Shown here: one piece after another, positions 14,779 through 32,141 of the stretch
Numbering within the stretch: position 1 is the first letter of the stretch
How the letters are laid out: each line of letters starts with the position of its first letter
Assembly (NCBI GenBank): GCA_016219275.1
Contig: JACRBM010000044.1
Span: 1-53,571, forward strand
Direction: 5' to 3'
DNA from: Chloroflexota bacterium
Lineage (GTDB): Bacteria > Chloroflexota > Anaerolineae > UBA4142
DNA: 53,571 nucleotides
Position numbers and translations under genes: made by a program
Notes under the pieces: generated by a model
What the model was told of the DNA's origin: nothing
The model's database searches: none
Seen by the model: the letters and a program-made list of their open reading frames with translations, nothing else

Positions 14779-14825
14779 TGAGTCAATTGGACTAATTCGT
14801 GAACGATTGCCGAGGAGTCAATTCA

Positions 14826-17800
14826 ATGATGCCTTTAATCAAACACTGGCTAATGCCGCCGGTATTTCCTGACAATGAAAACAAGACACTTGGCGCAAGT
14901 TTGCTCAACTATGCTTTGCTAACCACTGCCACACTCGCGTTGATCATTCTGGTCGGCAATGTGCTTGGCGGCAGAACACCGATCGCCATCATCGGAGCGG
15001 ATGTGGCTACCCTACTCGCGTGCCTGATCCTGCGGAGTTGGATGCATCGGGGTCAAGTCCGTTGGGCAAGCGCGGTGCTGATCGGAATGGACCTGATTGG
15101 CACAACCGTTTTCATCGCCATGCTGGGCACCATTCGGACACCCACGACGGCTTTTTTCCTGCTCATCGTCGTTGGGGGTGGTTTGCTGTTCGATGTCCGC
15201 GGCATTTTCATTACCGCGATCCTTAGTTCGTTGGCAGTCCTCGGCTTGATCGTGGCGCAAAATGCCGGAGTCTTGCCCCAACCCGATTATACGGTAACGA
15301 TCACACAGTGGTTCACGTACACGGCGCTGTTCGCTTTTTCAGGCGGCTTGACTTGGATGGCGCTTGGCGCGACGCGCCACGCTCTCCAACACGCCGATGG
15401 GGAACTGACGAAACGCGAGCACGCCGTGGAAGCATTGCGTAAAAGCGAAGAACGTTTTCGCGAGGCAATCGAATTCTTGCCGATTCCCATTGGGATCGCG
15501 GATCAACACGGTATTATCCTTCACTATAACCAACGATTTACCGAGCAGTATGGCTACGCTATTGAAGACATTCCCACCATCGCCGATTGGATGACACGCG
15601 CATATCCTGATCCGGATTACCGCGCCCAGGTGCTAACTCAATGGACGGAGATCGCCAATCTCGTGCGCGATGGCGCCACGACGCCGCCACGCGAGTTTAG
15701 AGTTACCTGTAAAGACGGCAGCCAGCGCGATGCCGAAATCATGGTGCGCCAGATTGGCGACGTGCTCGTAGCCGCGTTCCACGATGTGACTGAACGCAAA
15801 CGCGTGGAAGACCAACTCCGCTTTTCCATGCAATACGCGCGCGCGATCATTGACTCGTCGGTAGATATGATTGTCACCGTTGATAAAGAGCGCCGGATTG
15901 TCGAGTTTAACCGCGCCGCCCAGGAAACTTTCGGATATGCGCGCGAGCAAGTCCTGGGTCAACACATCAGTATGCTCTATGCGGATTCCCAGGAAGGACA
16001 GACGGTTCATCAGACTGCCTTTGCGGAAGGACGCTTGACCCGAGAAATTCGGAATAAACGCAAAAACGGCGACGTGTTCCCTAGTCTCTTGTCCGCCGCC
16101 GTGATGCGCAACGACCTGGGCGAAATGATCGGCGTGGTCGGCGTCTCGCGTGATATCACCGAAAGCAAGCGCGCGGATGAAGAGATCAAACATTTGAACG
16201 CGGATCTGGAAAGACGCGTCATTGAACGAACGGCGCAATTACAGGAAACGGCTGGATTACTCCAAACGATTTTCGATGCCGCCACCGACGGCGTTTCGGT
16301 TACGGACATGAACGGAAAATTTATCGCCGTAAACAACTCGGTTGTTCGTTTGCACGGCTTTGAAAAAAAGCAAGACCTGCTTGGACGCCCGGCGACCGAA
16401 GCCATTGCCGCCGCGTATCGCAATCAGGTCGTCCGCGAGTTCGCGGAAATCTTCCAAACAGGTCAAGGCAAGATCACGGAACTGGAATTGGTTCGACGAG
16501 ACGGCAGTACCTTCGACGCAGAATTGAGCGTCGCGTTATTTCGAAACGCGCAGGGTAAACCGGCTGGGCTGGTCGGCATCACCCGAGATATCACACATCG
16601 CAAGGAAGCCGAGCAAGCGTTGCAACGCTTTGCGGATGAACAAACGACGCTGTATAACACTGCGCTGAAATTGAACGCGCATTTGGAACCGGAGGAATTG
16701 CTCAAGGTGATCACCGAGCAAGCCGTCACACTGTTGAATGCGTCGGGCGGCGCGATCTTCCTCTACGATGCAGATCACAACTACTTGCGTTGTGCGATGG
16801 GCACCGGCTCCGCCACCAAGTCCGTGGGCAGGACCCTGGAAGTTGGGGAAGGACTCGCCGGGCAGGTATTCGTCCTGGGCTTTCCTAAAGTGGCAGATGG
16901 TTTTACGCTCTGGGATCATCGCGCGCCAATTGCCGAGAACGATGCGCGGATCAAGTCCGCCTTGGCGGTTCCGCTAACGAGTTCGACGCGGACGCTGGGT
17001 GTTCTGACGGTCAATCGAGACGCGCGGGTTGACTCTTTCGACCGGCGCGACATGCGGCTGGCTGAACTGCTTGCGGCGCAGGTCTCTATCGCGATCGAGA
17101 ACGCGCGGCTTTACCAATCCGAGCGCGAACAGCGCGAAATGGCGCAAGCCCTGAGTGAGATCGGCGCAGTCTTGTCCGCCACACTCAATTCTGAAACCGT
17201 GCTCGATGGAATCTTGGATCAAATTGCTCGGGTGGTTCCCCATGACGCAACGAACATCATGCTGATCGAAGATGGCGCGGCGCGCATTGTGCGTATGCGC
17301 GGCTATGAACAATTTGGCGCGATCAAACCGTCGCAGTTGGAATTCGATTTAGATCAAGGTTCGTTCTTCAAAGAGATGCTGCAAACCGGGCATCCCGCGA
17401 TCGTGGCTGATACCCATACCTTGCCGAATTGGACTGGTCTATCCGAAATGCCGTGGGCGCGCGCCACGGCGAGCGCGCCGATCCGCGTGCGCGATGAAAC
17501 ACTGGGTTTTTTGAATGTGGATAGCGCGACCCTTGATTTTTTTACGCCGACGAAGGTCGAGCGTCTGCAAGCATTGGCGAACCAAGCCGCGATGGCGCTG
17601 GAGAATGCGCGCTTGTACGAACGGGAGCGTGTGACTGCGGAGCGGATGCGCGCACTGTCGCATCACTTGGTCGAGGCGCAAGAGACGGAACGCGCGCGGA
17701 TTGCACGCGAACTGCATGACGAGATCGGGCAATCTCTCACCGCGCAAATCGTAGACTTGCATTTCCTCGAACGCAACGCGCAGGATTCGCAAATTGTTGC

Positions 17801-18311
17801 CGCGCGTGTGGCTGACTTGAAAGAAACGACCAATCGAGTCTTGGAGGATTTGCATCGCCTGACGGTCAACCTACGCCCGGTGGCGCTGGATCATCTGGGT
17901 CTCGTCGCCGCCTTGCGCCAACTGACCCAGGTTTTTCAACGGCAACACGCCGAGGTCGAAATGCAATTCCATGTGACTGGCGCCGGATGGGAAAACCTGC
18001 CGGACGAGATTGAAATCGCTTTGTACCGCATTGTCCAAGAAGCCCTGAACAATGTAGCACAGCATGCCCACGCCAATCGCGCAGAGGTCTTTCTCGCGCG
18101 TCGGGGGGATGACATCGTTACGATTGTGTGGGATAATGGGGCTGGGTTTGACCCGCGCATTGCATTTCGCAGTGGACGACTTGGATTGACCGGGATGCGG
18201 GAGCGCGCAGAAATGCTAGGGGGGAAAATGTGGATCGAGAGCAATCCTGGCGAAGGCACGACCGTTCACATGGAGGTTCCCTATGTCCATTCGGATTTTG
18301 ATCGCGGATGA
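14826..18311 (+). CDS. Multi-sensor PAS/GAF histidine kinase (HisKA_3)
   Basis: I place the start at ATG 14826 because GAGGAG lies 8 bases upstream; a GTG at 14799 is possible. The 1161-residue protein has about six membrane helices (residues 15-190), then PAS domains at roughly 205-325, 330-450 and 478-590 (each closing with DVTERK, DITESK or DITHRK), GAF domains at about 608-758 and 778-931, and a NarL/DegS-type kinase core: phospho-acceptor His964 in RELHDEIGQSL and an ATPase domain with EALNNVAQHAHA and GLTGMRERAEMLGG. Such kinases sense redox state, light or small ligands through PAS and GAF; no haem or chromophore ligand can be assigned here. It overlaps the next gene by 29 bases, which fixes its partner. 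Confidence 0.92.
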   Translation: MMPLIKHWLMPPVFPDNENKTLGASLLNYALLTTATLALIILVGNVLGGRTPIAIIGADVATLLACLILRSWMHRGQVRWASAVLIGMDLIGTTVFIAMLGTIRTPTTAFFLLIVVGGGLLFDVRGIFITAILSSLAVLGLIVAQNAGVLPQPDYTVTITQWFTYTALFAFSGGLTWMALGATRHALQHADGELTKREHAVEALRKSEERFREAIEFLPIPIGIADQHGIILHYNQRFTEQYGYAIEDIPTIADWMTRAYPDPDYRAQVLTQWTEIANLVRDGATTPPREFRVTCKDGSQRDAEIMVRQIGDVLVAAFHDVTERKRVEDQLRFSMQYARAIIDSSVDMIVTVDKERRIVEFNRAAQETFGYAREQVLGQHISMLYADSQEGQTVHQTAFAEGRLTREIRNKRKNGDVFPSLLSAAVMRNDLGEMIGVVGVSRDITESKRADEEIKHLNADLERRVIERTAQLQETAGLLQTIFDAATDGVSVTDMNGKFIAVNNSVVRLHGFEKKQDLLGRPATEAIAAAYRNQVVREFAEIFQTGQGKITELELVRRDGSTFDAELSVALFRNAQGKPAGLVGITRDITHRKEAEQALQRFADEQTTLYNTALKLNAHLEPEELLKVITEQAVTLLNASGGAIFLYDADHNYLRCAMGTGSATKSVGRTLEVGEGLAGQVFVLGFPKVADGFTLWDHRAPIAENDARIKSALAVPLTSSTRTLGVLTVNRDARVDSFDRRDMRLAELLAAQVSIAIENARLYQSEREQREMAQALSEIGAVLSATLNSETVLDGILDQIARVVPHDATNIMLIEDGAARIVRMRGYEQFGAIKPSQLEFDLDQGSFFKEMLQTGHPAIVADTHTLPNWTGLSEMPWARATASAPIRVRDETLGFLNVDSATLDFFTPTKVERLQALANQAAMALENARLYERERVTAERMRALSHHLVEAQETERARIARELHDEIGQSLTAQIVDLHFLERNAQDSQIVAARVADLKETTNRVLEDLHRLTVNLRPVALDHLGLVAALRQLTQVFQRQHAEVEMQFHVTGAGWENLPDEIEIALYRIVQEALNNVAQHAHANRAEVFLARRGDDIVTIVWDNGAGFDPRIAFRSGRLGLTGMRERAEMLGGKMWIESNPGEGTTVHMEVPYVHSDFDRG

Positions 18312-18924
18312 TCATGCTGTTGTGCGTGCCGGTTTACGCGCTCTGCTTAGCGCAGAGCCAGAGTTTATCGTTGTCGGGGAGGCGGAAGACGGGAATGCCG
18401 CGCTGCAATTAGCGCAAGACCTACAACCCGACGTGCTGATTCTCGATATCAGTATGCCGCAGTTGAATGGGATCCAAGCAACCCAAGCCATCAAAACAAA
18501 ACGACCCCAGACGCATGTCTTGATCCTCACCTTACACGAGGATGAGATTCTTTTGCGCCAAGCTTTCGACAGCGGCGCATCCGGTTATATCGTCAAGCGG
18601 GCGGTCGAATCCGAACTGGTCAGTGCGATCCATGCCGTGATGGCTGGCAATATCTACGTGCATCCAACGATGACGCGCGTCTTGCTGGGGAGTGTCCCAT
18701 CGGTTGCCAAATCAGAACAAAAATCACTGGACCAACTCACCCCGCGTGAAATCGAGGTCTTGAAACTGATCGCGCAAGGATTCACCAATCGTCAGATAGC
18801 CAAACAGTTGTATCTCAGCGTCCGGACGGTAGAAGCACATCGGGCAAACTTGACCGACAAACTTGGGCTATCGAGTCCGATCCAAATTGTTCGCTTTGCA
18901 ATGGAACACGGTTTGATCGAATAA
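18283..18924 (+). CDS. NarL/FixJ-family response regulator
   Basis: A 213-residue regulator starting inside the kinase gene, with GGAGG before its ATG. The receiver domain has DDH, phospho-acceptor Asp55 in LILDISMP and the switch Thr/Lys in LILTLH and IVKRA. The C-terminal HTH (about 148-210) has LTPREIEVLKLIAQGFTNRQ then SVRTVEAHRANLTDKLG. It should be phosphorylated by the overlapping kinase. Its gene is the last one before the promoter at 19084, whose upstream site contains GTACGTAC; NarL-type proteins favour short inverted repeats of the TAC/GTA type, so it is a natural candidate activator of the subtilase/cyclic di-GMP operons (inference). Confidence 0.92.
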   Translation: MSIRILIADDHAVVRAGLRALLSAEPEFIVVGEAEDGNAALQLAQDLQPDVLILDISMPQLNGIQATQAIKTKRPQTHVLILTLHEDEILLRQAFDSGASGYIVKRAVESELVSAIHAVMAGNIYVHPTMTRVLLGSVPSVAKSEQKSLDQLTPREIEVLKLIAQGFTNRQIAKQLYLSVRTVEAHRANLTDKLGLSSPIQIVRFAMEHGLIE

Positions 18925-19008: not shown

Positions 19009-19050
19009 ACTTACCCACAGTTCAATCTTGAGTTTGCACTGTGGGTAAGT
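19009..19050. promoter_or_regulatory. 13-bp perfect inverted repeat next to the subtilase operon promoter
   Basis: ACTTACCCACAGT (19009-19021) is matched by its complement at 19038-19050 around a 16-base spacer. No T run follows, so it is not a standard terminator. Its right arm overlaps the first bases of the conserved upstream site, which suggests an additional operator or an RNA hairpin ending the regulator transcript. Confidence 0.5.
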
Positions 19051-19112
19051 ATTTGTACGTACCCGACATTGGGACAAATACGCTTGGCAAAAGACCTGTT
19101 TAATAGTACTGT
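19044..19112 (+). promoter_or_regulatory. Promoter and conserved activator site of operon A
   Basis: A site of 48 bases (GGTAAGTATTTGTACGTAC to GGCAAA) recurs at 24251 with few changes. It ends in the -35 box TTGGCA (19084-19089); 17 bases later comes TACTGT (19107-19112). The palindrome GTACGTAC (19055-19062) is centred about 60 bases before the expected start of transcription, the usual place of a class I activator site. Confidence 0.75.
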
Positions 19113-19188
19113 GATACTAAAACCCGGAACTGTAGTTTCGCGTAAATTCTCAACCGTTATGAAACAGTATCCGACTAAGGAGGATGCG

Positions 19189-19596
19189 ATGCTGAAATCA
19201 GGTCTATGCTCGATCAATCGGGGCAAAGGGTTCGCCGTCCTTATTTTGATGGCACTGCTTGCAGTGACGCTGATCTCGCTTTGGGCGATGTCGCATGGCA
19301 TTATGCCAAGTCAGGTTGGTGTGAATTGGGGAAGTATAAAATCCCCGGCGTGTCCACCTGGTCAAGTGAATTGCGGCGAAACGGCAGTTGAATGGGGAAG
19401 TAAGAAATCCCCGGCGTGCCAACGTTCTAATGTGAACTGTGACAATGAGGCAACCGATTGGGAAAGTATCGAAGCCCCAACGTGCCCGCTTGACAATCCG
19501 AATTGTAACAGCAAAAAAGTGGCAGAGGGACCATCGGTGTACCCTCTGGAGGACCGAATCGCCCCAATAAAACTAAGCGTGGATTGGGGCAGTTGA
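19189..19596 (+). CDS. Small secreted protein with Cys-rich NWGS repeats
   Basis: AAGGAGG five bases before ATG 19189 sets this start; upstream in-frame ATGs fall in the promoter or lack a ribosome site. The 135-residue product opens with MLKSGLCSINRGK, which matches the NWGK leader motif of the three subtilases, then a hydrophobic signal segment. The mature part is three tandem units of 22-23 residues: VNWGSIKSPACPPGQVNC, VEWGSKKSPACQRSNVNC and a looser TDWESIEAPTCPLDNPNC. It ends in VDWGS. Each unit has two Cys. Being the first gene of operon A and sharing the W-G/D-S motif with the subtilase tails, it may be a partner, substrate or inhibitor of them (inference). No known family is recognised. 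Confidence 0.75.
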   Translation: MLKSGLCSINRGKGFAVLILMALLAVTLISLWAMSHGIMPSQVGVNWGSIKSPACPPGQVNCGETAVEWGSKKSPACQRSNVNCDNEATDWESIEAPTCPLDNPNCNSKKVAEGPSVYPLEDRIAPIKLSVDWGS

Positions 19597-19683
19597 AGCC
19601 GATTGCGGTAATCCATCACCAAAACCCTAGTGTTTCGCTCGAAAATCTCGCGTAGGCGTTATTGCGAAGAGCGCGGTTTGCGA

Positions 19684-19718
19684 CGAAGCAATCCCCAAGC
19701 TGAGTGGGGATTGCTTCG
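19684..19718. repeat. Hairpin repeat between the NWGS gene and subtilase 1
   Basis: CGAAGCAATCCCCA (19684-19697) is complementary to 19705-19718 with a 7-base loop. It is part of a longer GCGAAG/GCGACGAAGCAATC type repeat common in bacterial intergenic DNA. Lying between two genes that may share a transcript, it could lower read-through or stabilise the upstream mRNA. Confidence 0.6.
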
Positions 19719-19780: not shown

Positions 19781-21331
19781 ATGCAAAGGATAATCAAACG
19801 GTCATCATTGAACTGGGGCAAAGAATTGTGCCTGTTCGTTTTGTTGGCACTCGTTATAGTTCTCATGCCAGCGGTTCCATCGTTCGCTGCACCTGCCAGA
19901 ATGTCGCCCGTTCTAGCGCGATTCGCGACAGAGCGACCCGATGCGATGATTGGCGTCATCGTGCAAAAGTCCGCCAAGGATAACAGCATCGAAGAATTCG
20001 TCGCAAAATTGGGCGGGACGGTCATGAAAGACCTTTGGATCATCAACGCGTTTGCGGCAGAGGTACCGGCAAGCTCGGTACCAGAACTCGCCAAGGCGGC
20101 AGGGGTCAAGTGGATCTCGCTTGACGCGCCAACTGTTCAAACGGTTTGCACACCACCCTGTATTGACACGTCGAAACTGAAAAGTAATTACCCTCAAGCG
20201 GTAAATGCAACGAAGGTTTGGAATCTGAAGGGGCAATACCTGCAAGGGCAGGGCATCGCCGTAGCGGTTGTGGACAGCGGTATCAATGTATCCCATCCGG
20301 ACCTTTTGAATGTGCAGGGCACAAGTCGCGTCGTCGCGTCGGTAAAAGTCAATAGCAAGACTGCGAATACGGACGACTATTTTGGGCACGGCACTCACGT
20401 TGCCGGCATTATCGGCGGCAACGGCAAAGTATCTGGTGGAGCGTACATCGGTGTTGCGCCGCAAGTCAATCTAGTCAACGTCAAGATCAGCGACGATCAA
20501 GGAAATGCAAGCGAATCCGATTTAGTGGCGGGCTTGCAGTGGGTCTACCAGAATCACGATAAATACAATATCCGCGTGGTCAATCTTTCCATCAATAGCT
20601 CGGTCAACGAGTCCTATCACACTAACCCGATTGACGCCGCCTGCGAGGTTTTGTGGTTTAATAAGATCGTGGTTGTGGTCGCCTCGGGCAATGCGGGTTG
20701 GAACGCGCTCTACCCACCGGCAAACGATCCCTTTGTAATTACCGTGGGAGCAACGAATGACTGGGGCACAGTAAGCCGGGACGATGATACTTGGGCTTTG
20801 TATTCCACTTTTGGTAAAACTAACGACGGTTTTGCAAAGCCCGATTTAGTCGCGCCGGGAAATCAGGTCATCAGTCTCCTCCCTCGATCAAATGCCGTAT
20901 TGGCAACAGCACATCCCGATCATTTGGTCAGTGGGTTTACTGGTTCGGAGCGCTATTTCCGGATGTCAGGTACGTCAATGTCTGCGCCGATCGTGGCGGG
21001 AGGCGCCGCTCTACTGCTCCAGTCCAACCCGAATCTGACACCTGATCAGGTTAAGTACCGCTTGACAGCGACAGCGTTTGCTCTCCGCTCCACCATGCTT
21101 GCCGGAAGTGGCGAGCTTGATATCTACGCCGCGGTCACCAGCAAGAAAACCCAGAGTGCAAACACCGGCATGGCGATCAGCAAAATGCTAACGCCCGGCG
21201 CAAATTCGGCGCAATGGACCAGTCTTAACTGGGATTCGCTGAACTGGGATTCGCTGAACTGGGACTCACTCAATTGGGATAGTCTCAACTGGGACTCGTT
21301 GAACTGGGATAGTATTTACTGGGGCAACTAG
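19781..21331 (+). CDS. Secreted S8 subtilase with NWDS tail (subtilase 1)
   Basis: A 516-residue protease with a strong AGGAGGG ribosome site. It has the leader motif SSLNWGK, a signal peptide (about 15-36), an I9 propeptide-like domain (about 45-115, MIGVIVQKS to GVKWISLDAP) and a full S8 domain: Asp165 in VVDSGI, His203 in GHGTHVAG, the oxyanion Asn in SGNAG, Ser399 in GTSMSAP. After a short linker the protein ends in LNWDS six times and IYWGN once (21224-21328). Two Cys (CTPPC) lie just before the catalytic domain. The next gene encodes a GGDEF-HD-GYP protein. The catalytic set is complete, so an active exported protease is expected; the tail has no function that I know of. Confidence 0.92.
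   Translation: MQRIIKRSSLNWGKELCLFVLLALVIVLMPAVPSFAAPARMSPVLARFATERPDAMIGVIVQKSAKDNSIEEFVAKLGGTVMKDLWIINAFAAEVPASSVPELAKAAGVKWISLDAPTVQTVCTPPCIDTSKLKSNYPQAVNATKVWNLKGQYLQGQGIAVAVVDSGINVSHPDLLNVQGTSRVVASVKVNSKTANTDDYFGHGTHVAGIIGGNGKVSGGAYIGVAPQVNLVNVKISDDQGNASESDLVAGLQWVYQNHDKYNIRVVNLSINSSVNESYHTNPIDAACEVLWFNKIVVVVASGNAGWNALYPPANDPFVITVGATNDWGTVSRDDDTWALYSTFGKTNDGFAKPDLVAPGNQVISLLPRSNAVLATAHPDHLVSGFTGSERYFRMSGTSMSAPIVAGGAALLLQSNPNLTPDQVKYRLTATAFALRSTMLAGSGELDIYAAVTSKKTQSANTGMAISKMLTPGANSAQWTSLNWDSLNWDSLNWDSLNWDSLNWDSLNWDSIYWGN
21224..21328 (+). repeat. Seven Trp pentapeptide codon repeats in subtilase 1
   Basis: 35 codons: LNWDS six times then IYWGN, directly before the stop. Synonymous codons vary between units (GAT/GAC, TCG/AGT/TCA), which argues for selection on the peptide rather than recent DNA slippage. 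Confidence 0.9.
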
Positions 21332-21412: not shown

Positions 21413-24193
21413 ATGACCAAGCGCGCTTGGGTATACGTAATTGGATGGATACTTGCAGGCGGGATTCTGAGTGTGTGGGCATTCCAAGCATCTGCCCAAT
21501 CCGCTCTGCCAGTACCCACATTTTTTGCGTTTCTGTTGCTTGCCACGCTAGCCCAGTTCCTCAAAGTGCCTGCCCCCAATCATCAGTTGTACTATCTCAA
21601 TACAATTTTTTTGTTTGCCAGCGCCCTGTTACTGTCCCCTATTGGATTTGTAAGTATTGTCGTTCTCTCCCTCTCAATCCAATGGTTAAAAGAACGACTC
21701 ACTGGCAGTCCGCACCTGCGCAAATGGTACCTCCAGCCCTTCAACATGTCCACTCATATTATTTGTGGCTTGGTATCCTCGCGCCTAGTCCTCGCGCTAA
21801 TTTCCATCGATGCACCCATCTTATCAAGTACGAGTGTGATCGCCGCATTGGTGGGCGCGCTGATCTATACCCTGATCAACCATTTAGCGATTGGATCCGC
21901 TCTCGTGTTGGCGCGCGGTGTAAGCTGGCGCGAGTCCGGGATTTTGGAAATTGAAAATCTCTTGATGGATTATGTCGGGTTGTGCATGGGCTATATGCTC
22001 TTCGTCATCTGGAAAATCGACGCGGGGCTAATGGCGCCCACCCTTGCGCCACTGATTCTAGTTTATCGTGCCCTGTCTATCCCAGGTTTGAAGAAAGAAG
22101 CCCAAACCGACGGCAAAACCGGTTTGTTGAATGCTCTTTATTTTAACAAGTTATTCATCGCCGAGATTGATCGCGCGGAGAATTTGGAGCATCCGCTTTC
22201 CGTCATTATGGCTGATCTTGATCTCTTGCGTAACATCAACAATTCTTACGGTCATCTGGCGGGCGATGCGGTCTTGGCAGGCGTTGCCAAAATCATCCGC
22301 GAGCAGAGTCGCAAATATGATCTCACGGGGCGATTCGGTGGCGAAGAGTTTTGCATTGCCTTGCCCGAGACATCTCTGGAAGAAGCCACCGCGATTGCCG
22401 AACGAATTCGAAAAACAATCGAATCCACTGCATTCAGACTCAATGAAAACGCTCCTCCGATCAACGTCACGATGAGTTTCGGCATTGCGTGTTTCCCTCA
22501 AGATGCCAACACAGCGAATGAGTTGATTCATCAGGCAGACGTAGCGGTCTATCAAGCCAAACTTCAGGGACGCAATTGCGTTGTACGTTCCGCCAATGTT
22601 CCACACTCCGTCAAGTTGGAAATGCCGGGGGTAGAGAATCGTCTTGAAACAGGTAACAACTCTATCTACATTCCAAAACCAACTCCAATCCAGGTTGCGC
22701 GGCGGATCACTGCTTCCAAGCCAGTGGGAAACGGGACCAAAACGGTTCCGGCAAAAGGACGATCGGTATCGTGGCTTGGATACCTCGTGGGAGGCGTAGT
22801 TGGGGTTGCGGTGCTCGTGAGTATCGGCGGCATGTATATCCAGCCACGACCAGACCCAATGATCGTTTTCCTTTTGATGATCATGGCTGGAATTACGCAA
22901 CTACCCCAGTTAAAAAATTTGACTGGTGATTCATCTATATCCGTTTCGGTAGGAATTAACTTTGCGGCGGCGGTCATACTTGGAATCCCCGGGGTCATCT
23001 TCACGAGTGCAACGATTGCCGTTGCTCATCGAGTCTTTCGGTGGAATGTGAAAAAGGGGTTATGGCCGGTCATCTACAAAACAGCATATAACTGGGCAAT
23101 TCATGTTCTTGCCGCGCTGGCTCCCGCAGTGGCTAGTACGCTGTTGCCTAGTCGCTTTGAGATCAGCGGTTTGATCATTTCGCTTGGGATGATGGTTCTC
23201 GCTGCGATTATCTACTTTGGTGTAGAGACCGGTCTACTTGTCGCCGCAATCAGTGTTGAGAAATCAACGCCAGCTCTGCCCATCTGGAAAGAAGAATGCG
23301 CTTGGTTGGCGCCACAATATGTCGTTTTATGCTTGATCGGTTTCTTTCTCGGGGTCGCGTACGATTTTCAAGGGAATGTTGGTATTCTCGTTTTTACGAT
23401 TCCGGTGCTGATGATGTACTATTCGCAGAAGGAATATATTGATCGAACAGAAAAGGGTGCTCTGGAACTAAGGCGCATGAATCAGGAACTTTCGGGCGCC
23501 AATTCCAGAGTCCTGCAAGCCAATGTCGCCATCCGTGAGATGAATGAAGAGTTGTTGGTCGCTTTTGCAAAAATGATCGATGCGCGTGATCCCTATGTTT
23601 CTGGTCATTCAGCCCAGGTGGCAGAATATGCAACAGCACTCGCTAATGAATTGGGATTTGACGAGGAACACATCGCGCGCGTCCGGCAAGCCGCGATTTT
23701 TCACGATATTGGAAAAATTGGTATCTCAGAAAAGATCCTTCACAAACCAGCTCGGCTGGATGGACCAGAGTATGAGTATATTAAGAAACATGTTGTCATC
23801 GGCGCGCAATTCTTGGAGACGTGCAAAGGGTTACGCTATTTAGTTCCCGTGATCAAGGCTCATCATGAATGGTGGGATGGCAATGGTTATCCCGATCACC
23901 TCGTCGGGGAACAGATTCCTCTGGATGGTCGGATTCTGGCGGTGTGTGATGCCGTGGAAGCGATGGCTTCGGATCGCCCGTATCATCGTGCCTTGCCACT
24001 TGAAACGATTATCGCTGAGATCGAGCGTTGTGCGGGTACCCAATTTGACCCTCAAGTCGTAGATGCATTTATTCGGGTTGCTAGACATGAAGGCGGAAAA
24101 CTGGTTGTGAATTCAGCGCGTACCGTCTCGGCAAGGGCGGATGTGCTAGCGGTGCCAGCCATTCTTGAAAACTATTGGCAAGTCGCTCCGTAG
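21413..24193 (+). CDS. Membrane GGDEF-HD-GYP protein, cyclic di-GMP turnover (1)
   Basis: A 926-residue protein: a first membrane domain of about six helices (1-225), a GGDEF domain with the active signature GGEEF at about 309 and an intact inhibitory RxxD (RKYD) five residues before it, a second membrane domain of about six helices (455-675), a short coiled segment, and an HD-GYP domain (HD at about 763, HHEWW, NGYPD at about 824, DRPYHRAL). Synthesis and breakdown of cyclic di-GMP are thus on one chain, and all key residues are present. The two membrane domains look related to each other. It follows subtilase 1 by 81 bases; the same pairing recurs with subtilase 3 and the protein at 29352, so a functional link is likely. 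Confidence 0.92.
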   Translation: MTKRAWVYVIGWILAGGILSVWAFQASAQSALPVPTFFAFLLLATLAQFLKVPAPNHQLYYLNTIFLFASALLLSPIGFVSIVVLSLSIQWLKERLTGSPHLRKWYLQPFNMSTHIICGLVSSRLVLALISIDAPILSSTSVIAALVGALIYTLINHLAIGSALVLARGVSWRESGILEIENLLMDYVGLCMGYMLFVIWKIDAGLMAPTLAPLILVYRALSIPGLKKEAQTDGKTGLLNALYFNKLFIAEIDRAENLEHPLSVIMADLDLLRNINNSYGHLAGDAVLAGVAKIIREQSRKYDLTGRFGGEEFCIALPETSLEEATAIAERIRKTIESTAFRLNENAPPINVTMSFGIACFPQDANTANELIHQADVAVYQAKLQGRNCVVRSANVPHSVKLEMPGVENRLETGNNSIYIPKPTPIQVARRITASKPVGNGTKTVPAKGRSVSWLGYLVGGVVGVAVLVSIGGMYIQPRPDPMIVFLLMIMAGITQLPQLKNLTGDSSISVSVGINFAAAVILGIPGVIFTSATIAVAHRVFRWNVKKGLWPVIYKTAYNWAIHVLAALAPAVASTLLPSRFEISGLIISLGMMVLAAIIYFGVETGLLVAAISVEKSTPALPIWKEECAWLAPQYVVLCLIGFFLGVAYDFQGNVGILVFTIPVLMMYYSQKEYIDRTEKGALELRRMNQELSGANSRVLQANVAIREMNEELLVAFAKMIDARDPYVSGHSAQVAEYATALANELGFDEEHIARVRQAAIFHDIGKIGISEKILHKPARLDGPEYEYIKKHVVIGAQFLETCKGLRYLVPVIKAHHEWWDGNGYPDHLVGEQIPLDGRILAVCDAVEAMASDRPYHRALPLETIIAEIERCAGTQFDPQVVDAFIRVARHEGGKLVVNSARTVSARADVLAVPAILENYWQVAP

Positions 24194-24250
24194 GCGTGAA
24201 CGGATATATCGCCGCTGACTCTCCTCTCGTTCACTCTTCGTCTTGCCGTT

Positions 24251-24320
24251 GGTAAGTACTTGTACGTACGCCGATTTTAGGACAATTACGCTTGGCAAAG
24301 GGCGTTTTTGGCAGTAATGT
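24251..24320 (+). promoter_or_regulatory. Promoter and conserved activator site of operon B
   Basis: Near-copy of the site at 19044: GGTAAGTACTTGTACGTAC, then CCGATTTTAGGACAATTACG, ending in TTGGCA (24292-24297), a 17-base spacer and TAATGT (24315-24320). GTACGTAC is at 24262-24269, at the same distance from the -35 box except for one base. An extra palindrome AAGTACTT precedes it here. Confidence 0.75.
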
Positions 24321-24360
24321 AATTCTCAAGATAGGAATGCTTTCTGGTTTGAATGACAAT

Positions 24361-24480
24361 ATCTTCGCCAATTTATTCTTTCATCCGCGAATCTCGCGAA
24401 TCTTCGCTAATTTTGTTTTTTATTCGCGTGATTCGCGTGATTCGCGGATCAATTTATGATTTTGGCGAAGGTGTTGAATG
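24361..24480. repeat. TTCGCG-rich inverted repeat, copy 1
   Basis: The region begins CTTCGCCAATTTATTC and ends with the opposite strand form (ATTTTGGCGAAGGTGTT), with several ATTCGCG units between. The complement of its right half matches 29176-29225 closely (AACACCKTCGCCAAAATC, then ATAAATTSATCCGCGAAT). It lies in the leader of operon B, between promoter and subtilase 2. Confidence 0.6.
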
Positions 24481-24511: not shown

Positions 24512-26089
24512 ATGAAACCCACTCTACGATTCACGATCAACTGGGGTAAACGACGCGGATTGGTGCGATCAGCATTGCTTCTCGTCGCGTTGCTTTGCCT
24601 TGCTACGACGGGAGCGACCGGCATTCCTCTGATCTCGGCGCCAACAAACGCGACGGCAGTCCCAGTCAATGTTCAACCCATTTTGACGAAATATGCATCC
24701 GAGAATCCTGATTCGCTTGTAAGTGTGATCGTACAGAAAACTGGTGCAGACACGCGTGCCGAGGAGCTAGTCACGCGCTTGGGCGGACGCGTGACGACGG
24801 ACCTATCCATCATCAACGGGTTTGCGGCAGAGTTGCAAGCCAAGGATGTGGCACGACTCGCGCATGTGGAGGGTGTTCGTCAAATAAGTCTGGATGCAGT
24901 GATGACCTCCACGACTTGCACCCAGTGCATTGACACAGCCACTCTGGCAAATGCGTACATTCGCGCCATTGGGGCTGATAAAGTTTGGAACAAATCCCCC
25001 TACCTGCAAGGACAAGGCATCGGTGTCGCGGTGGTGGATAGCGGCATCAACCCCAATGGCGATCTCTACACAGTCCTGGGTAAAAATCGGCAGATAGCGA
25101 ACGTGCGTTTCAACACTGACTATAACCAGAACACATCGGATGGCTATGGTCATGGGACGCATGTCTCCAGTATCGTGGGTGGCGATGGAAGCGAGTCGGG
25201 CGGCAAGTACATTGGCGTAGCACCGATGGTCAACATCATCAACGTCAAGGTCAGCAACGACAACGGCAGCGCAATGACGAAGAACGTTGTCCAAGGTCTG
25301 CAGTGGGTGCTCGCGAATAAAGCAAAATACAATATTCGCGTCGTCAACTTGTCGCTGAATAGTTCTGTTGCTGAGTCGTACCACACCAGCCCGCTTGCAG
25401 CGGCAGTCGAGATTCTGTGGTTCAACAAGATTGTCGTGGTGGCATCCGCCGGGAACCAGGGCAAGGGCGCGATTTATCCCCCGGCGAACGATCCGTTTGT
25501 CATCACGGTTGGGGCAACGGACGATAAAGGCACCAACAGTATCTCGGATGATGTTGTAACATCGTTTTCGGCTTATGGGACAACCGGCGATGGAGTTGTC
25601 AAACCTGACCTGGTTGCTCCCGGCGCAAATATCGTTGCGCGTCTGGTCAACAGCAACATGGGCTTGGCAAAAGCACACCCCGCGAACAAAGTCGCCAATG
25701 GGGTGTATTTCCGTATGTCAGGCACCTCGATGTCTGCGCCAATCGTCAGTGGCGCAATCGCGCTGTTGCTCCAAGACGAGCCAAATCTGACGCCTGATCA
25801 AGTCAAGTATCGCTTGAAGGCAACGGCGAACAACAAGTGGGCGGGCTATAACGCGACCAAAGCTGGCGCGGGCTATCTGGATATTGACGCGGCGGTCAAT
25901 GGCACGTCAACCCAATCCGCAAACAGCGGCATCACCATCAGTCGCTTTTTGTTCACCGGCACGAACAAGACCTGGGGCAGTGCGAACTGGGACAGCGCCA
26001 ACTGGGATTCGGCAAATTGGGACAGCGCGAATTGGGATAGCGCCAGCTGGGATTCCGCAAACTGGGATAGCGACTATTGGGGACCATAG
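24512..26089 (+). CDS. Secreted S8 subtilase with NWDS tail (subtilase 2)
   Basis: A 525-residue relative of subtilase 1 with the leader motif FTINWGK, a signal peptide (about 17-42), an I9-like propeptide (about 55-125) and an S8 domain with Asp176 (VVDSGI), His214 (GHGTHVSS), Asn in SAGNQG and Ser406 (GTSMSAP). It carries the same Cys pair region (CTQC) before the catalytic domain. The end is ANWDS four times, ASWDS, ANWDS and DYWGP (25982-26086), preceded by KTWGS. It is the first gene of operon B, with only 29 bases to the GGDEF gene. Substrate unknown. Confidence 0.92.
   Translation: MKPTLRFTINWGKRRGLVRSALLLVALLCLATTGATGIPLISAPTNATAVPVNVQPILTKYASENPDSLVSVIVQKTGADTRAEELVTRLGGRVTTDLSIINGFAAELQAKDVARLAHVEGVRQISLDAVMTSTTCTQCIDTATLANAYIRAIGADKVWNKSPYLQGQGIGVAVVDSGINPNGDLYTVLGKNRQIANVRFNTDYNQNTSDGYGHGTHVSSIVGGDGSESGGKYIGVAPMVNIINVKVSNDNGSAMTKNVVQGLQWVLANKAKYNIRVVNLSLNSSVAESYHTSPLAAAVEILWFNKIVVVASAGNQGKGAIYPPANDPFVITVGATDDKGTNSISDDVVTSFSAYGTTGDGVVKPDLVAPGANIVARLVNSNMGLAKAHPANKVANGVYFRMSGTSMSAPIVSGAIALLLQDEPNLTPDQVKYRLKATANNKWAGYNATKAGAGYLDIDAAVNGTSTQSANSGITISRFLFTGTNKTWGSANWDSANWDSANWDSANWDSASWDSANWDSDYWGP
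25982..26086 (+). repeat. Seven Trp pentapeptide codon repeats in subtilase 2
   Basis: Same unit length, copy number and closing WG unit as in subtilases 1 and 3; the fifth unit is ASWDS. Confidence 0.9.
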
Positions 26090-26118: not shown

Positions 26119-26985
26119 ATGTTGAATGTACTCGCCGAAGGATTGGTGATCGCAGGCGCGTGCATCTTGCTCGGCGCGATGATCCCAGTTCGTCAATTGG
26201 TCGCGCAGCTTCCCTCGGGACAAGTACGACGCAGATGGTACACCTTGACGGCGTTGATTCTAGTCTTCATCGCCGGTTACGTTGGTTACATCGCAGTGTT
26301 CTGGGAACTTGCCACAACCTGGCTCGACCTCATTGTGCCGGGGGTATTCTTCCTGGGCGCGGGTTTTGTCTGGCTCGTGTCAACTCTTTCGCTCCAAACG
26401 GCGATGGATGTCCGTCGCGTCGCTTTACTCGAACATGAGAATATTACTGATCCGTTAACCGGAATTTACAACCGCCGCTATTTGGATCGTCGGCTCAACG
26501 AGGAATTTGCGCGAGCCAGGCGCTATGCGAGTCCGCTATCAGTGCTACTGCTAGATATCGATCGGTTCAAGCATGTCAACGATACCTATGGACATCCGGT
26601 GGGCGACCTGGTCTTGAACTACTTGGGCAAATTGCTCTTGCATGCGATTCGCGAGTCGGACATTCTGGCGCGTTACGGCGGCGAAGAGTTTCTGCTCATC
26701 GCTGCGAACACAACCGCTTCCACCGCCATTGCGTTAGCCGAGCGCCTCCGCCAGCATGTGGAGACTCACGCGCTTGTGTTGACTAGCGAACCCAGCCAAC
26801 GACAAGAGATTCGCATTTCCGTTAGCATTGGAGTAGCCAGTCTTAGCCACCAAGTTTTCGATAGTACAGAGTTATTAGTGAATGCCGATCAAGCTCTTTA
26901 TTGCGCCAAACAAGCAGGTCGTAATCGCGTCTCTCTTTACCATGCAGACGCGCTCGTTACCGTATCCTATGAATCAACCGCTTGA
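26119..26985 (+). CDS. Membrane diguanylate cyclase (GGDEF)
   Basis: A 288-residue protein with three membrane helices in the first 95 residues and a GGDEF domain (about 115-280). The active signature GGEEF is at about 187 and the inhibitory RxxD (RESD) precedes it, so it should make cyclic di-GMP and be product-inhibited. It lies between subtilases 2 and 3 with gaps of 29 and 64 bases, so all three are probably on one transcript. Unlike its neighbours it has no HD-GYP domain. Confidence 0.92.
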   Translation: MLNVLAEGLVIAGACILLGAMIPVRQLVAQLPSGQVRRRWYTLTALILVFIAGYVGYIAVFWELATTWLDLIVPGVFFLGAGFVWLVSTLSLQTAMDVRRVALLEHENITDPLTGIYNRRYLDRRLNEEFARARRYASPLSVLLLDIDRFKHVNDTYGHPVGDLVLNYLGKLLLHAIRESDILARYGGEEFLLIAANTTASTAIALAERLRQHVETHALVLTSEPSQRQEIRISVSIGVASLSHQVFDSTELLVNADQALYCAKQAGRNRVSLYHADALVTVSYESTA

Positions 26986-27049: not shown

Positions 27050-29110
27050 ATGAGAACCACTCGCAGATTCACGATTAACTGGGGTAAGAGCACACGCATC
27101 CTTGTTTTGTTCATGCTGATGGCAGTCGCATCGTTCACGGTCAGTACTCCGCACACTGCCGCGCTATCGCGCCTCCAGCCGATTCTCGCGCGATATGCGG
27201 CGGAGAGTCCGGACATGCAAATCGGCATCATCGTTCAAAAGTCAACCCAGGATGCCAAGGTTGAACCCATCGTAACCCGGCTCGGCGGGACGGTGAGCCA
27301 AGACCTGTCGCTCATCAAAGGTTTTTCGGCGCAACTGAAAGCCAAGGATGTGCTCGAACTGGCAAAAGCCGATGGCATTCGCTGGATTTCGTTCGATGCG
27401 CCGATGCGCGCGTCCGGCGGACCGACCAAAACCAAGTTCACAACCTGGGCGACCAAAATCGGCGCGGCGGTCCGCAACGGCTTTACGAATTCCGCAAATA
27501 TCTTGTCGCCGGTTGGCATTAACAAGACCTACGGTTCGGGCGCAAACGTCAAGGGTTCGTTCGGCGGGTTCATGCCAGAATACACACCCGGCGTTGTCAT
27601 CACCAAGGTCGAGGTTGTTTTCCGCGTCTATGTGTCCGCCGCGTTGGCTTCCGCAGAGACCCCCAAGATCACTCCGTATGTGGCAGGTGTCGCTGGGAGT
27701 ACAGTCACTGTACCTGCCACCTTGTTCAGTCAACATATCGGAGTAAACGCGGTCGGCACCAAGTACGTTGACATTACGAGCACACGAGCATGGAAGTGGT
27801 CGGATTTCGCGGCGGCAAAGAATACCGAAATCCTGATTGATCAGAGTTCGGTTGCCAAAAGCCACACCATCTATTACGATGCCGTCGGACTACGCCTCAC
27901 AACCAATGCTGGCACGACCGATACGACCTCGCCGCTGACGATGACCGCGAGCGCGGATGGCGGAACGGTGGATACGGGTGTCTTGTCGAATGTCTATAAC
28001 CAAGCGGTGCGCGCAACAAATGTCTGGAATGAAGCGCCGTACTACAAAGGCGCAAACGTAACCGTTGCGGTGATTGACAGTGGAAATTTCAAAACGAACG
28101 CGATCGGCTCGCGTCTGATTGGCGAAATAAATTTCAACGCCACCGAGCACACCGCCAATGATCAATACGGTCACGGCACGTTCGTCACGGGCTTGGTCGC
28201 CGATGATGGCGTGGTGTCCGGCGGCAAGTACATGGGCATTGCGCCCAAAGTGAACATCATGGGTTTGCGCGTCAGCGATGACAATGGTATGGCGCTCGAA
28301 TCCGATGTAGTCAATGCCCTCCAATGGGTGTATAATAACAAGGCAACTTACAACATCAAAGTAGTAAACCTGTCCATGAATTCGAGTGTCTGGCAGTCGT
28401 ACAATACGAGCGCGCTGGATGCCGCATGTGAAATCCTCTGGTTCAACAAAATTGTCGTCGTTGTATCGGCGGGAAATAATGGCACGTCAACGCTGTATCC
28501 GCCGGCGAATGACCCATTCGTGATTACGGTTGGTTCGGTTGACGACAAGGCGACGGTTGTACTCACCGACGATGCGATTGCCACTTTCTCCGCCTACGGC
28601 ACGGATGAAGCCGGCAATGTCAAGCCCGACTTGGTTGCGCCTGGCAAGAACCTGATCGCTTATTTGCCCGACAACGGTTCATTGGCGATAGCGGCGCTAC
28701 ATCCGGAAAACCGGGTAGATAACTATTACTTTCGCATGTCCGGTACTTCGACCTCAACCCCATTGGTCAGCGGCGCCGTCGCGTTGATGCTCGAAGCAAA
28801 CCCAGGTTTGACGCCCGATCAAGTCAAGTACCGTCTGAAAGCAACGGCGAACAAGACGTGGGCAGGTTACATCGCCACAAAAGCCGGGGCAGGTTATCTG
28901 GATGTGTATGCGGCGGTCAAGGGCACGACAACTCAAGCCGCGAACACCAGCGTCAGTATCAGTCGTTTCTTGTTCACCGGTACGAATTCGACCTGGGGTA
29001 GTGCGAATTGGGATAGCGCGAACTGGGACTCGGCGAACTGGGACAGCGCGAATTGGGATAGCGCCGCGTGGGGCACGGCGAATTGGGATAGTGATCATTG
29101 GGGACCATGA
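27050..29110 (+). CDS. Secreted S8 subtilase with inserted domain and NWDS tail (subtilase 3)
   Basis: TGGAGGA upstream of ATG 27050 supports this start over the in-frame ATG at 27002; product 686 residues. The leader FTINWGK, signal peptide and I9-like domain match subtilase 2. A segment of about 190 residues (about 120-310, Thr/Val/Gly-rich with VVFRVYVSA and TKYVDITSTRAWKWSDF) is inserted between propeptide and catalytic domain and looks like a beta-sandwich carbohydrate- or surface-binding module. The S8 domain has Asp343 (VIDSGN), His375 in GHGTF (the second, non-catalytic His is replaced by Phe) and Ser567 in GTSTST. The tail is ANWDS four times, AAWGT, ANWDS, DHWGP (29003-29107). Probably active. 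Confidence 0.9.
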   Translation: MRTTRRFTINWGKSTRILVLFMLMAVASFTVSTPHTAALSRLQPILARYAAESPDMQIGIIVQKSTQDAKVEPIVTRLGGTVSQDLSLIKGFSAQLKAKDVLELAKADGIRWISFDAPMRASGGPTKTKFTTWATKIGAAVRNGFTNSANILSPVGINKTYGSGANVKGSFGGFMPEYTPGVVITKVEVVFRVYVSAALASAETPKITPYVAGVAGSTVTVPATLFSQHIGVNAVGTKYVDITSTRAWKWSDFAAAKNTEILIDQSSVAKSHTIYYDAVGLRLTTNAGTTDTTSPLTMTASADGGTVDTGVLSNVYNQAVRATNVWNEAPYYKGANVTVAVIDSGNFKTNAIGSRLIGEINFNATEHTANDQYGHGTFVTGLVADDGVVSGGKYMGIAPKVNIMGLRVSDDNGMALESDVVNALQWVYNNKATYNIKVVNLSMNSSVWQSYNTSALDAACEILWFNKIVVVVSAGNNGTSTLYPPANDPFVITVGSVDDKATVVLTDDAIATFSAYGTDEAGNVKPDLVAPGKNLIAYLPDNGSLAIAALHPENRVDNYYFRMSGTSTSTPLVSGAVALMLEANPGLTPDQVKYRLKATANKTWAGYIATKAGAGYLDVYAAVKGTTTQAANTSVSISRFLFTGTNSTWGSANWDSANWDSANWDSANWDSAAWGTANWDSDHWGP
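29003..29107 (+). repeat. Seven Trp pentapeptide codon repeats in subtilase 3
   Basis: 35 codons directly before the stop; fifth unit AAWGT, last unit DHWGP, preceded by STWGS. Confidence 0.9.
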
Positions 29111-29175
29111 GTTCAAAACACCCGTGATATGATGCTGCTCCGGTTGAACTAGTACTGGAGCAGCATTCCCTATTT

Positions 29176-29335
29176 TCAACACCGTCGCCAAAATCATAAA
29201 TTCATCCGCGAATAACGCGAACCCTGGCACTTGCGTTCCCGCCAGGGCAAGTGTAACGCGAATGAATTTAAAAATTGGCGGAGATTCGCGTTATGCGCGG
29301 ATAAAAAAACGGGCGAAAACAATTTGGCGAAGGTA
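29176..29335. repeat. TTCGCG-rich inverted repeat, copy 2
   Basis: Begins as the inverted form of copy 1 (CGCCAAAATCATAAATTCAT, CCGCGAATAACGCG) and ends ATTTGGCGAAGG. Inside lies a block CCTGGCACTTGCGTTCCCGC which recurs at 33188 (CCTGGCACTTGCGTTCCTGC). It fills the 240-base gap between subtilase 3 and the second GGDEF-HD-GYP gene. Confidence 0.6.
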
Positions 29336-29351: not shown

Positions 29352-32141
29352 ATGTCACGGCGCGCATGGATTTTTGTGTGCAGTGTAATACTTGTCGGTG
29401 GCGTCTTTGGAGGCAGCGCTCTTTTGAATCGCGCCGCTTCTCCTAAATCGTGGGATGCGTTTGCCTTTTTAGCGCTGTGCGCCACCTTGTCCCAGTTATA
29501 CAAATCCATTTTTAAGAGCACACCCAAGTCCGAAACAGAAGGCAACATTAGCTTCAGCCCCGTGTTGATTTTTCTATCGGCGGGCGCTTTCCTGCTTCCC
29601 ACCGCGGATTTTGTATTGCTGGTGTTCATCCCCCACATCATCGAATGGATCAAGGCGCGTGTACAGAATAGCACGAGTCTGCGCGCGTGGTACATCCAAC
29701 CTTTCAATATCGCGAATCATATTTGTTGCGGGCTAGTCGCTCAACAAATCTATCAATTCAGCCCCGCGCTTTTTTCAACCGACATAGCGCCAGCGAGACC
29801 CATTGCGGCTTTAGTGGCGCTGATCGTCTATGTGACCCTTAACCAGCTCTTGGTTGGTCTTGCCGTCGTCTTGGCGCGCGGTTCGACTTGGAAGAATACC
29901 GGCATGTTGCAGTGGAACACATTGATGCCGGATTTCATGTTGCTCTGCCTGGGTTATCCGCTTGCTTTGTTATGGGAACAAAATCCTTGGTACAGTCTTT
30001 TTGCCCTCTCGCCGCTACTGTTAATTCAGCGCGCGCTTAGCGTGCCCCAATTGCAAAAAGAGGCGCGGGTAGACGCCAAAACTGGGTTGTGGAATGCCGC
30101 GCATTTTTCCCGCTTGTTTACATTGGAGATGGAGCGGGCAATCCGATTTGCGCGCCCGCTTTCCGTCATTATGTCAGACCTCGATCTGCTGCGTAACGTC
30201 AACAACACGTATGGTCATCTCGCCGGGGATACCGTTTTGGCAAGCATTAGCCAGGTGATCCGCCAAATTGTGCGTGAATATGATATTGCCGGCAGATTCG
30301 GCGGCGAAGAATTTATAGTGGCGTTACCCGAAACGGAACACGCGGAGGCAATCGCGATTGCAGAACGCCTACGCGAGAATATTGCCAAGACCGCGATTCC
30401 GGTGAGCACGAGTCCTACTCCGATCTACGTCACAATGAGTTTTGGGATTGCTTCCTATCCTGCCGATGCCACCAACACAAAGGAGCTGATTCACCAAGCC
30501 GACATTGCCGTGTACCAAGCTAAACTCAAAGGACGCAATTGTGTCGTGTCCATCACCGATGTGCCGCGCTCGATCAGATTGGAAAACATGTCTTCCGAAA
30601 ACCGGTTAGCCGCAACGGATGCCCCGCCGTCATCTCCGACTGTCAATCCGTCAATCGTCGAACCGGAGAAACCAGCCATCAAAAAATATTCTGAATTCTT
30701 GATGCGTAAGCGCAGACCGATTCCACACCGCTTTGAATGGATCGCCCCTTTCGTCGGGACGATCATCCTGAGCGGAATACTGATCACCGTATTCGGACTA
30801 GTCCAGCATCAGACCTTTGACCTGACGCTCGTGGCGATTCTCGTTGGAGCCGGCGCGCTTGCCGAGTGGTTAGAAGTGGGCATGTACGGCGACAGCACAT
30901 TTTCAGTTTCGGTCACGATTGTCTTTGCGGCGATCTTCCTAAGCGGATTTGTCGGATTGGTGTGTGTGAGCGCCGCCATTGTGATCGCCCATTACATCAG
31001 GAATCGCGATATCGAAATCTACAAGCCCGTGTTCAATTGGGCAACCCATGTTCTCGCCGGACTGATTCCACTCTATGGAATCTCTTTATTTCAAATTCCA
31101 ATTGTCTGGGACAATTTTATCGGATTGACTTTTCTGACCCTCATCACCGCGCTGGGGTATTACATCGTCGAATCGGGTCTTGTCAGCTTCGCCATCGGCT
31201 TGTCCGAAAAGAGCAATATTTTCATCACATGGCGCGGGCAGTTCGGTTGGACCTCCTTGTTCTATGTTGCCATGTGCCTGATTGGGCTGTTTATGGCTAT
31301 CTTGTACAACGACCTCAAAGGAATCCTGGGCATCTTTGTATTTGCGCTGCCGATGGTGCTGATCCATTATGCGCAACGACAATACATCGAACGCACTCAG
31401 GCAGGTGCGCGTGAATTAGAGCGCATGAACAAAGAACTTACGCTTGCCAACCATAAACTGCTCCACGCCAGTCTGCATATCGAACAACTGAACGACGAGT
31501 TGTTTGTCACGCTCGCGAAAATCATTGATGCGCGCGATCCGCTCGTGTTGAATCATGCGATCAAGGTCGCCGAATACGCCACGGTCATCGCGCGGGAAAT
31601 GAAATTGCCGCCCGCGCGGATTGAAAGACTCCGGCAAGCGGCGTTGCTGCATGATATCGGCAAGATTGGTATTTCGGAGCAAATTCTAAAAAAACCCGCG
31701 CGACTCACTGGTTTGGAGTACGAATCGGTCAAGACCCATACGACCTTGGGCAGCGAATTACTTGCCGCCAGCCAAAGCTTGCGGCACTTGGCGCCGTTTG
31801 TGCGCCATCATCATGAATGGTGGAACGGCAAGGGCTACCCCGATCAACTGTTGGGGGGACAGACCCCGATCGAGGCGCGCATCATTGCCGTAGCCGATGC
31901 CATCGAATCCATGGCGTCAGACCGCACCTATCATCGCGCGCTAAAACTCGACGAAATCATTGACGAAATAAGTCGCCATGCCGGGACCCAATTCGATCCA
32001 TCCATTGCGGACCTGTTTATCCAAATCCTGAAGCGCGATGGAAGTATCCTGGTCGTAAATTCCACAACGCAAAACCGGCGCGCCAACGAAAAACCAAGTC
32101 CGAGCACTGGCTTGCCGTTTACAGATCCCGGTTTGGCTTAG
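29352..32141 (+). CDS. Membrane GGDEF-HD-GYP protein, cyclic di-GMP turnover (2)
   Basis: A 929-residue paralogue of the protein at 21413 with the same order: membrane domain (1-230), GGDEF with GGEEF at about 317 and RxxD (REYD) before it, second membrane domain (about 460-680), HD-GYP with HD at about 766, HHEWW, KGYPD at about 828 and DRTYHRAL. AAGGAG precedes the ATG. All catalytic and metal-binding motifs appear intact, so both synthesis and hydrolysis are possible and must be balanced by signals through the membrane parts. It follows subtilase 3 and precedes a CheW gene by 20 bases. Confidence 0.92.
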   Translation: MSRRAWIFVCSVILVGGVFGGSALLNRAASPKSWDAFAFLALCATLSQLYKSIFKSTPKSETEGNISFSPVLIFLSAGAFLLPTADFVLLVFIPHIIEWIKARVQNSTSLRAWYIQPFNIANHICCGLVAQQIYQFSPALFSTDIAPARPIAALVALIVYVTLNQLLVGLAVVLARGSTWKNTGMLQWNTLMPDFMLLCLGYPLALLWEQNPWYSLFALSPLLLIQRALSVPQLQKEARVDAKTGLWNAAHFSRLFTLEMERAIRFARPLSVIMSDLDLLRNVNNTYGHLAGDTVLASISQVIRQIVREYDIAGRFGGEEFIVALPETEHAEAIAIAERLRENIAKTAIPVSTSPTPIYVTMSFGIASYPADATNTKELIHQADIAVYQAKLKGRNCVVSITDVPRSIRLENMSSENRLAATDAPPSSPTVNPSIVEPEKPAIKKYSEFLMRKRRPIPHRFEWIAPFVGTIILSGILITVFGLVQHQTFDLTLVAILVGAGALAEWLEVGMYGDSTFSVSVTIVFAAIFLSGFVGLVCVSAAIVIAHYIRNRDIEIYKPVFNWATHVLAGLIPLYGISLFQIPIVWDNFIGLTFLTLITALGYYIVESGLVSFAIGLSEKSNIFITWRGQFGWTSLFYVAMCLIGLFMAILYNDLKGILGIFVFALPMVLIHYAQRQYIERTQAGARELERMNKELTLANHKLLHASLHIEQLNDELFVTLAKIIDARDPLVLNHAIKVAEYATVIAREMKLPPARIERLRQAALLHDIGKIGISEQILKKPARLTGLEYESVKTHTTLGSELLAASQSLRHLAPFVRHHHEWWNGKGYPDQLLGGQTPIEARIIAVADAIESMASDRTYHRALKLDEIIDEISRHAGTQFDPSIADLFIQILKRDGSILVVNSTTQNRRANEKPSPSTGLPFTDPGLA

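Follow-up and report, generated by a model that had tools for sequence, protein, structure and literature searches.

The window, by which we mean the whole 53,571-nucleotide stretch of Chloroflexota DNA that was analyzed, carries a gene for a small protein with tryptophan motifs (the small W-motif protein) between a two-component system and the first of three subtilase genes (Table 1). Each of the three subtilases is followed by a GGDEF or GGDEF-HD-GYP protein, and the histidine kinase-response regulator pair also lies 5′ of the small gene at two loci of genome G010 and in genome G005. The small gene starts with an ATG codon at 19189, preceded by a good Shine-Dalgarno sequence (AAGGAGG, at about 19177–19183). 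An inverted repeat (ACTTACCCACAG...CTGTGGGTAAGT) is present at 19009–19050, just 5′ of the gene, and a 21-nt segment after its stop codon (CACCAAAACCCTAGTGTTTCG in the window, 19597–19640) has a near-identical counterpart in locus L052 after position 8900, there too behind the stop codon of the small gene. Short, partly inverted repeats rich in TCGCGAATC are common to 24386–24480 (5′ of subtilase 2) and 29175–29322 (5′ of the second GGDEF-HD-GYP enzyme). The minus strand also encodes two nearly identical 160-residue secreted proteins (MKTKYL...), at 10722–11204 and 46078–46560, separated by about 35 kb.

Table 1. Features of the small W-motif protein locus in the window, with riboswitches at related loci in the last line.
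Feature	Coordinates	Strand	Basis or position
Sensor histidine kinase (PAS, GAF, HisKA_3)	14799..18311	+	Pfam
LuxR-type response regulator	18283..18924	+	Translation; BLAST-detected response regulator at related loci
Upstream segment common to small gene and subtilase 2	19020..19121	+	103 bp, 75% identity, E 5e-15
Small W-motif protein, 135 aa	19189..19596	+	ORF, coordinates and strand verified; homologues
Leader CSINRGK, variant of S-[IL]-N-W-G-K	19207..19227	+	Sequence
Predicted single transmembrane or signal helix, residues 11–35	19219..19293	+	AlphaFold2
Unit 1, VNWGS..C-x6-C, VNWGSIKSPACPPGQVNCGETA	19321..19386	+	Sequence, self-identity
Unit 2, VEWGS..C-x6-C, VEWGSKKSPACQRSNVNCDNEA	19387..19452	+	Sequence, self-identity
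Unit 3, TDWES..C-x6-C, TDWESIEAPTCPLDNPNCNSKK	19453..19518	+	Sequence, self-identity
C-terminal VDWGS and stop	19579..19596	+	Sequence; terminal WGS also in G314, G251, G005
Hairpin (inverted repeat) separating the small gene from subtilase 1; may be a terminator or attenuator	19684..19718	+	Self-complementary BLAST match
Subtilase 1, leader SLNWGK, tail (LNWDS)6	19781..21331	+	Peptidase_S8, E 4e-48
Tail of subtilase 1	21224..21328	+	Sequence; predicted disordered
GGDEF-HD-GYP enzyme	21413..24193	+	Pfam; co-occurrence
Partner copy of the upstream segment, 5′ of subtilase 2	24229..24329	+	Match to 19020–19121
Subtilase 2, leader TINWGK, (ANWDS)n tail	24512..26089	+	Sequence, Pfam
GGDEF protein	26119..26985	+	Sequence; matches GGDEF part of 29352 enzyme
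Subtilase 3, leader TINWGK, (ANWDS)n tail	27050..29110	+	Sequence, Pfam
Second GGDEF-HD-GYP enzyme	29352..32141	+	Pfam
c-di-GMP-I or c-di-GMP-I-GGC riboswitches	L144:6206–6289; L175:10224–10309; also L100, L104, L105, L110–L113, L118, L119, L176, L177		5′ of Trp-tail subtilases or small W-proteins; families f1, f3, f13, f33, f40

From its N terminus the small W-motif protein comprises a leader, a predicted transmembrane helix, three units spaced by exactly 22 residues, each with two cysteines arranged as C-x6-C, and a terminal VDWGS. A period of 22 gave 23 self-identical positions, the best value among periods of 10 to 39, and none of 100,000 shuffled sequences matched either this self-identity or the four [NDE]W[GE]S motifs. 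Translation and shuffling thus bear out the tandem W-G/E-S units, paired cysteines, and VDWGS end of the preliminary description. DNA identity between the units is 56 to 71%, so the repeat is old and diverged. The AlphaFold2 model shows one confident helix (residues 11–35) followed by disorder, and that of subtilase 1 is good over most of residues 40 to 460, with a tail (residues 465–516) at a pLDDT of about 25 to 33; low pLDDT values obtained with 7 or 17 sequences are weak evidence of real disorder. We sought a fold for the ectodomain and for the subtilase tail, and the models were disordered in both. The small protein had no match in Pfam, NCBIfam, or solved structures.

The Trp motif of the small protein is the building block of the (xNWxS)n tails of the subtilases. 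All of the subtilases carry it near the C terminus, in flavors that include VNWGS, VNWNS, VNWDS, VNWSS, LNWDS, ANWDS, VDWGS, and ASWGS. Three tandem [N/D]-W-x-S units, searched as a DNA pattern, occurred in 22 of 396 genomes of the class, with only two in the reverse-read control, and the NW-pattern tails were all on subtilases among the open reading frames examined. In the f3 genomes (L110–L112), one subtilase tail continues as SVNWG units spaced by basic and proline-containing linkers, a layout resembling that of the small protein. A pentapeptide-repeat (Rfr) fold, considered for the tails because of their [ND]-aromatic pattern, was unsupported by Pfam or the model. The proteases resemble peptidase family S8 subtilases (Pfam PF00082) in their catalytic domain and in an apparent propeptide-like N-terminal domain (a weak Inhibitor_I9 match, E = 0.024, and the model). 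Their best NCBIfam match was the T7SS mycosin TIGR03921 at 154.7 bits, below the cut-off of 278.75, and that model includes neither the NWxS tail nor the S-[IL]-N-W-G-K leader. Literature searches on the Trp motif and on subtilases combined with c-di-GMP riboswitches turned up nothing relevant.

When the window protein was the sole query in a whole-genome search, a homologue was found in G010 (E = 2.9e-5); a second, in G012, was found by a two-sequence profile that did not contain it (E = 5.5e-13). These proteins belong to two related genera and each is encoded directly 5′ of a Trp-tail subtilase. The G010 protein has four motifs (VDWRS and three VDWGS) with C-x6-C loops, next to a subtilase with a (VDWGS)5 tail, and the G012 protein has VDWSD four times in alternating long units. 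Weaker whole-genome matches (E above 0.005, many with internal stops) were taken as chance, and a scan of genome contigs with subtilase 1 returned only the G010 and G012 loci plus one distant subtilase. Because sequence homology by itself reached just three genomes at class scale, we sought equivalents by way of the subtilases, the leader motif, and the GGDEF enzyme, defining them, as for the window protein, by a signal or transmembrane segment and WGS-type motifs, with a Trp-tail subtilase or its GGDEF-HD-GYP enzyme encoded alongside. Divergent equivalents lay at four further loci: in G010 itself, at another locus (L175), an 85-residue protein with two ASWGN motifs and C-x8-C, 5′ of a subtilase whose tail is (ASWGS)n; a 77-residue protein ending in SWGS in G005, after the kinase-regulator pair; an 87-residue protein with two VNWGS motifs, the second terminal, in G314 of family f37, 0.4 kb 3′ of a VNWGS-tail subtilase; and its 90-residue relative in G251, also of f37, which ends in VNWGS and lies 0.5 kb 5′ of a GGDEF-HD-GYP enzyme. 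All seven loci (G000, two in G010, G012, G005, G314, and G251) encode a signal or transmembrane segment with at least one WGS-type motif. At six of them a Trp-tail subtilase, or what is left of one, is present; the remaining locus is cut off 5′ by the end of the contig and has the GGDEF-HD-GYP enzyme 3′. Homologues that adjoin tail subtilases, which the preliminary description had proposed as a check, do exist outside the locus, and neither of the refuting conditions named there was borne out. No small partner was detectable beside most Trp-tail subtilases (f3, f13, f33, f40, and the f1 genomes G003 and G011), so the small protein is not essential to them; since more divergent proteins would be missed, such cases in these mostly draft, multi-contig assemblies are to be read as not detected.

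What persists across the relatives is the transmembrane or signal segment and the WGS-type motif, as would be conserved in a docking tag, whereas unit number (1 to 4), spacing (about 20 to 36 residues), and cysteines vary or, for the cysteines, are lost. This variation bears on the earlier proposal of a precursor cut into repeats, taken here as cleavage by the subtilases between ectodomain units that would free Trp-bearing C-x6-C peptides, possibly with a signal or matrix role. Three regular 22-residue units, a modeled disordered ectodomain, adjoining co-regulated proteases, and a nearby two-component system would suit such a precursor. The conserved unit length and number expected of one were not found among the relatives, however (about one motif in G005, two without cysteines in G314, alternating long units in G012); neither a conserved sequence resembling a cleavage site nor a partner for processing and export was seen, and the sensor kinase is of a multi-PAS/GAF kind. 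Excision into unit-sized peptides is thus weakly supported, and we regard it as unlikely. The loops also invite comparison with small canonical protease inhibitors, as Pro-rich C-x6-C sequences (CPSTDPKC, CLPTDPKC) stand next to serine protease genes and might hold the subtilases inactive. That the small protein is such a cognate inhibitor seems quite improbable, given that the loops are variable and absent from both f37 proteins, that no inhibitor family in Pfam or NCBIfam was matched, and that the subtilases appear to have a propeptide-like domain of their own.

The preliminary description had assigned the small protein the same leader and promoter type as the subtilases. The leader claim stands, with a W-to-R change in the window copy (CSINRGKG, versus SLNWGKE, TINWGKR, and TINWGKS in the subtilases); the homologues keep intact leaders (FSINWGKG and FSINWGKA). 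Within the family, all eight sense matches to S-[IL]-N-W-G-K were subtilases, small W-proteins, or the G005 remnant, and the other two matches (G001 and G007) were antisense or chance. YSIRK-type signal peptides are likewise marked by a conserved short n-region motif common to different exported proteins; the present leader only resembles that type, and apart from the remnant it was seen only on Trp-tail subtilases and small W-proteins. The promoter claim held for subtilase 2, which shares the upstream segment listed in Table 1; no match to it was found 5′ of subtilases 1 and 3. In G010, 127 bp of upstream DNA (93%, E = 1e-41) is common to the small gene and a subtilase further along, and these regions do not resemble their counterparts in the window. 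Such matching within each genome is as expected of co-regulated genes, or of recent duplication. The subtilase-like leader, upstream DNA, and tail motif could even mark the small gene as a functionless fusion of promoter, leader, and tail left by duplication of a subtilase gene. We consider this highly improbable: different genera retain the open frame along with good ribosome sites and the repeated motifs, another family has a similar protein, and in G005 the small ORF is intact where the subtilase has been lost, reduced to a leader (MSKKRCSVNWGKGFSILALR) and a stop.

The flavor of the small protein's motif tends to follow that of the neighboring tail, the observed pairing ranking second of 120 permutations over five pairs, with poor matches in G000 and G012. 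Two loci of different flavor (VDWGS and ASWGS/N) coexist in G010, and each small protein matches its own neighbor's tail. Flavor matching is no more than suggestive of interaction; it could also stem from descent, the motif having arisen by duplication of the tail. An alternative is that the motif on tails and small protein binds one cell-wall or surface component, the proteins themselves not touching. That both kinds of protein carry the motif, all the subtilases near their C terminus, is compatible with such a tag; a general sorting signal should mark many exported proteins, unlike the NW-pattern tandem tails, which are on subtilases only, and the two own-matched flavors in G010 argue against one common receptor. 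A shared third-party ligand is therefore, in our judgment, doubtful.

The link to c-di-GMP extends beyond the window. Close relatives of the enzyme at 21413–24193 occurred in 32 of 396 genomes of the class, including 18 of the 22 with tails (Fisher 5e-19, uncorrected for phylogenetic relatedness), and within the family all nine GGDEF-HD-GYP copies lay at these loci. In 439 kb of such loci, Rfam identified 15 riboswitches of the c-di-GMP-I or c-di-GMP-I-GGC type, compared with 0.4 expected from the family-wide density. Small W-proteins had one 5′ of them in two cases, in G005 and at G010 C160; most of the other riboswitches were directly 5′ of Trp-tail subtilases. These elements are not exclusive to the locus, serving other genes in these genomes as well. 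No riboswitch or other Rfam element was found in the window, where GGDEF enzymes are present, and the window's genome has seven such riboswitches elsewhere. At G010 C160 a terminator-like hairpin lies 3′ of the aptamer, and overlap of the aptamer P1 with a possible antiterminator suggests an OFF switch.

In Clostridioides difficile, the protease PPEP-1 and the surface adhesin that it cleaves, CD2831, are encoded by adjacent genes under c-di-GMP riboswitch control (PMC6447587). The present locus is similar in its adjacent genes for a secreted protease and a repeat-bearing surface protein, and in its tie to c-di-GMP through riboswitches (here in relatives, with a putative OFF switch at G010 C160). 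It differs in having a subtilase rather than a metalloprotease, a small protein without a sortase signal or collagen-binding domain, and no riboswitch in the window, and partner cleavage is established for CD2831 only. We draw a mechanistic analogy, that a protease and surface-partner arrangement can work, and claim no membership.

Taken together, the small membrane protein is part of a recurring c-di-GMP-linked protease locus in Chloroflexota. The earlier suggestion of a partner of the subtilases is upheld by gene order, by the leader, upstream DNA, and motif in common, and by independent recurrence next to Trp-tail subtilases or their accompanying GGDEF-HD-GYP enzyme. The partnership is well supported, its mechanism less so; the small protein probably docks with the neighboring proteases at the cell surface. 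As we envisage it, the secreted or single-pass protein would be exposed at the surface, where its disordered and putatively disulfide-looped ectodomain would display several copies of the Trp motif; like-with-like contacts with the tails would recruit the proteases to the membrane-anchored protein, and they may clip it as well. This full account, of a surface-exposed, membrane-anchored, multivalent docking partner and possibly also substrate of c-di-GMP-linked secreted subtilases, is our preferred one and is held tentatively, at somewhat under an even chance. A bolder and rather unlikely extension would make the NWxS pentapeptide a homotypic docking module of a kind not described before, by which disordered subtilase tails pair with the matching flavor on a membrane-anchored scaffold in c-di-GMP-controlled assembly of surface proteases. 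Under the preferred reading, these genes, the c-di-GMP enzymes, the two-component system, and, in relatives, the c-di-GMP riboswitch would form one module, and proteolysis at the surface would be coupled to the c-di-GMP state of the cell (attached or motile), in a direction of regulation that we infer.

Flavor matching and the two-flavor G010 genome make a direct test of binding specificity possible. For a poorly studied and mostly uncultured phylum, these results describe a recurring c-di-GMP-linked secreted-protease locus, and the small partner with its common motif offers a concrete handle on what the Trp tails do.
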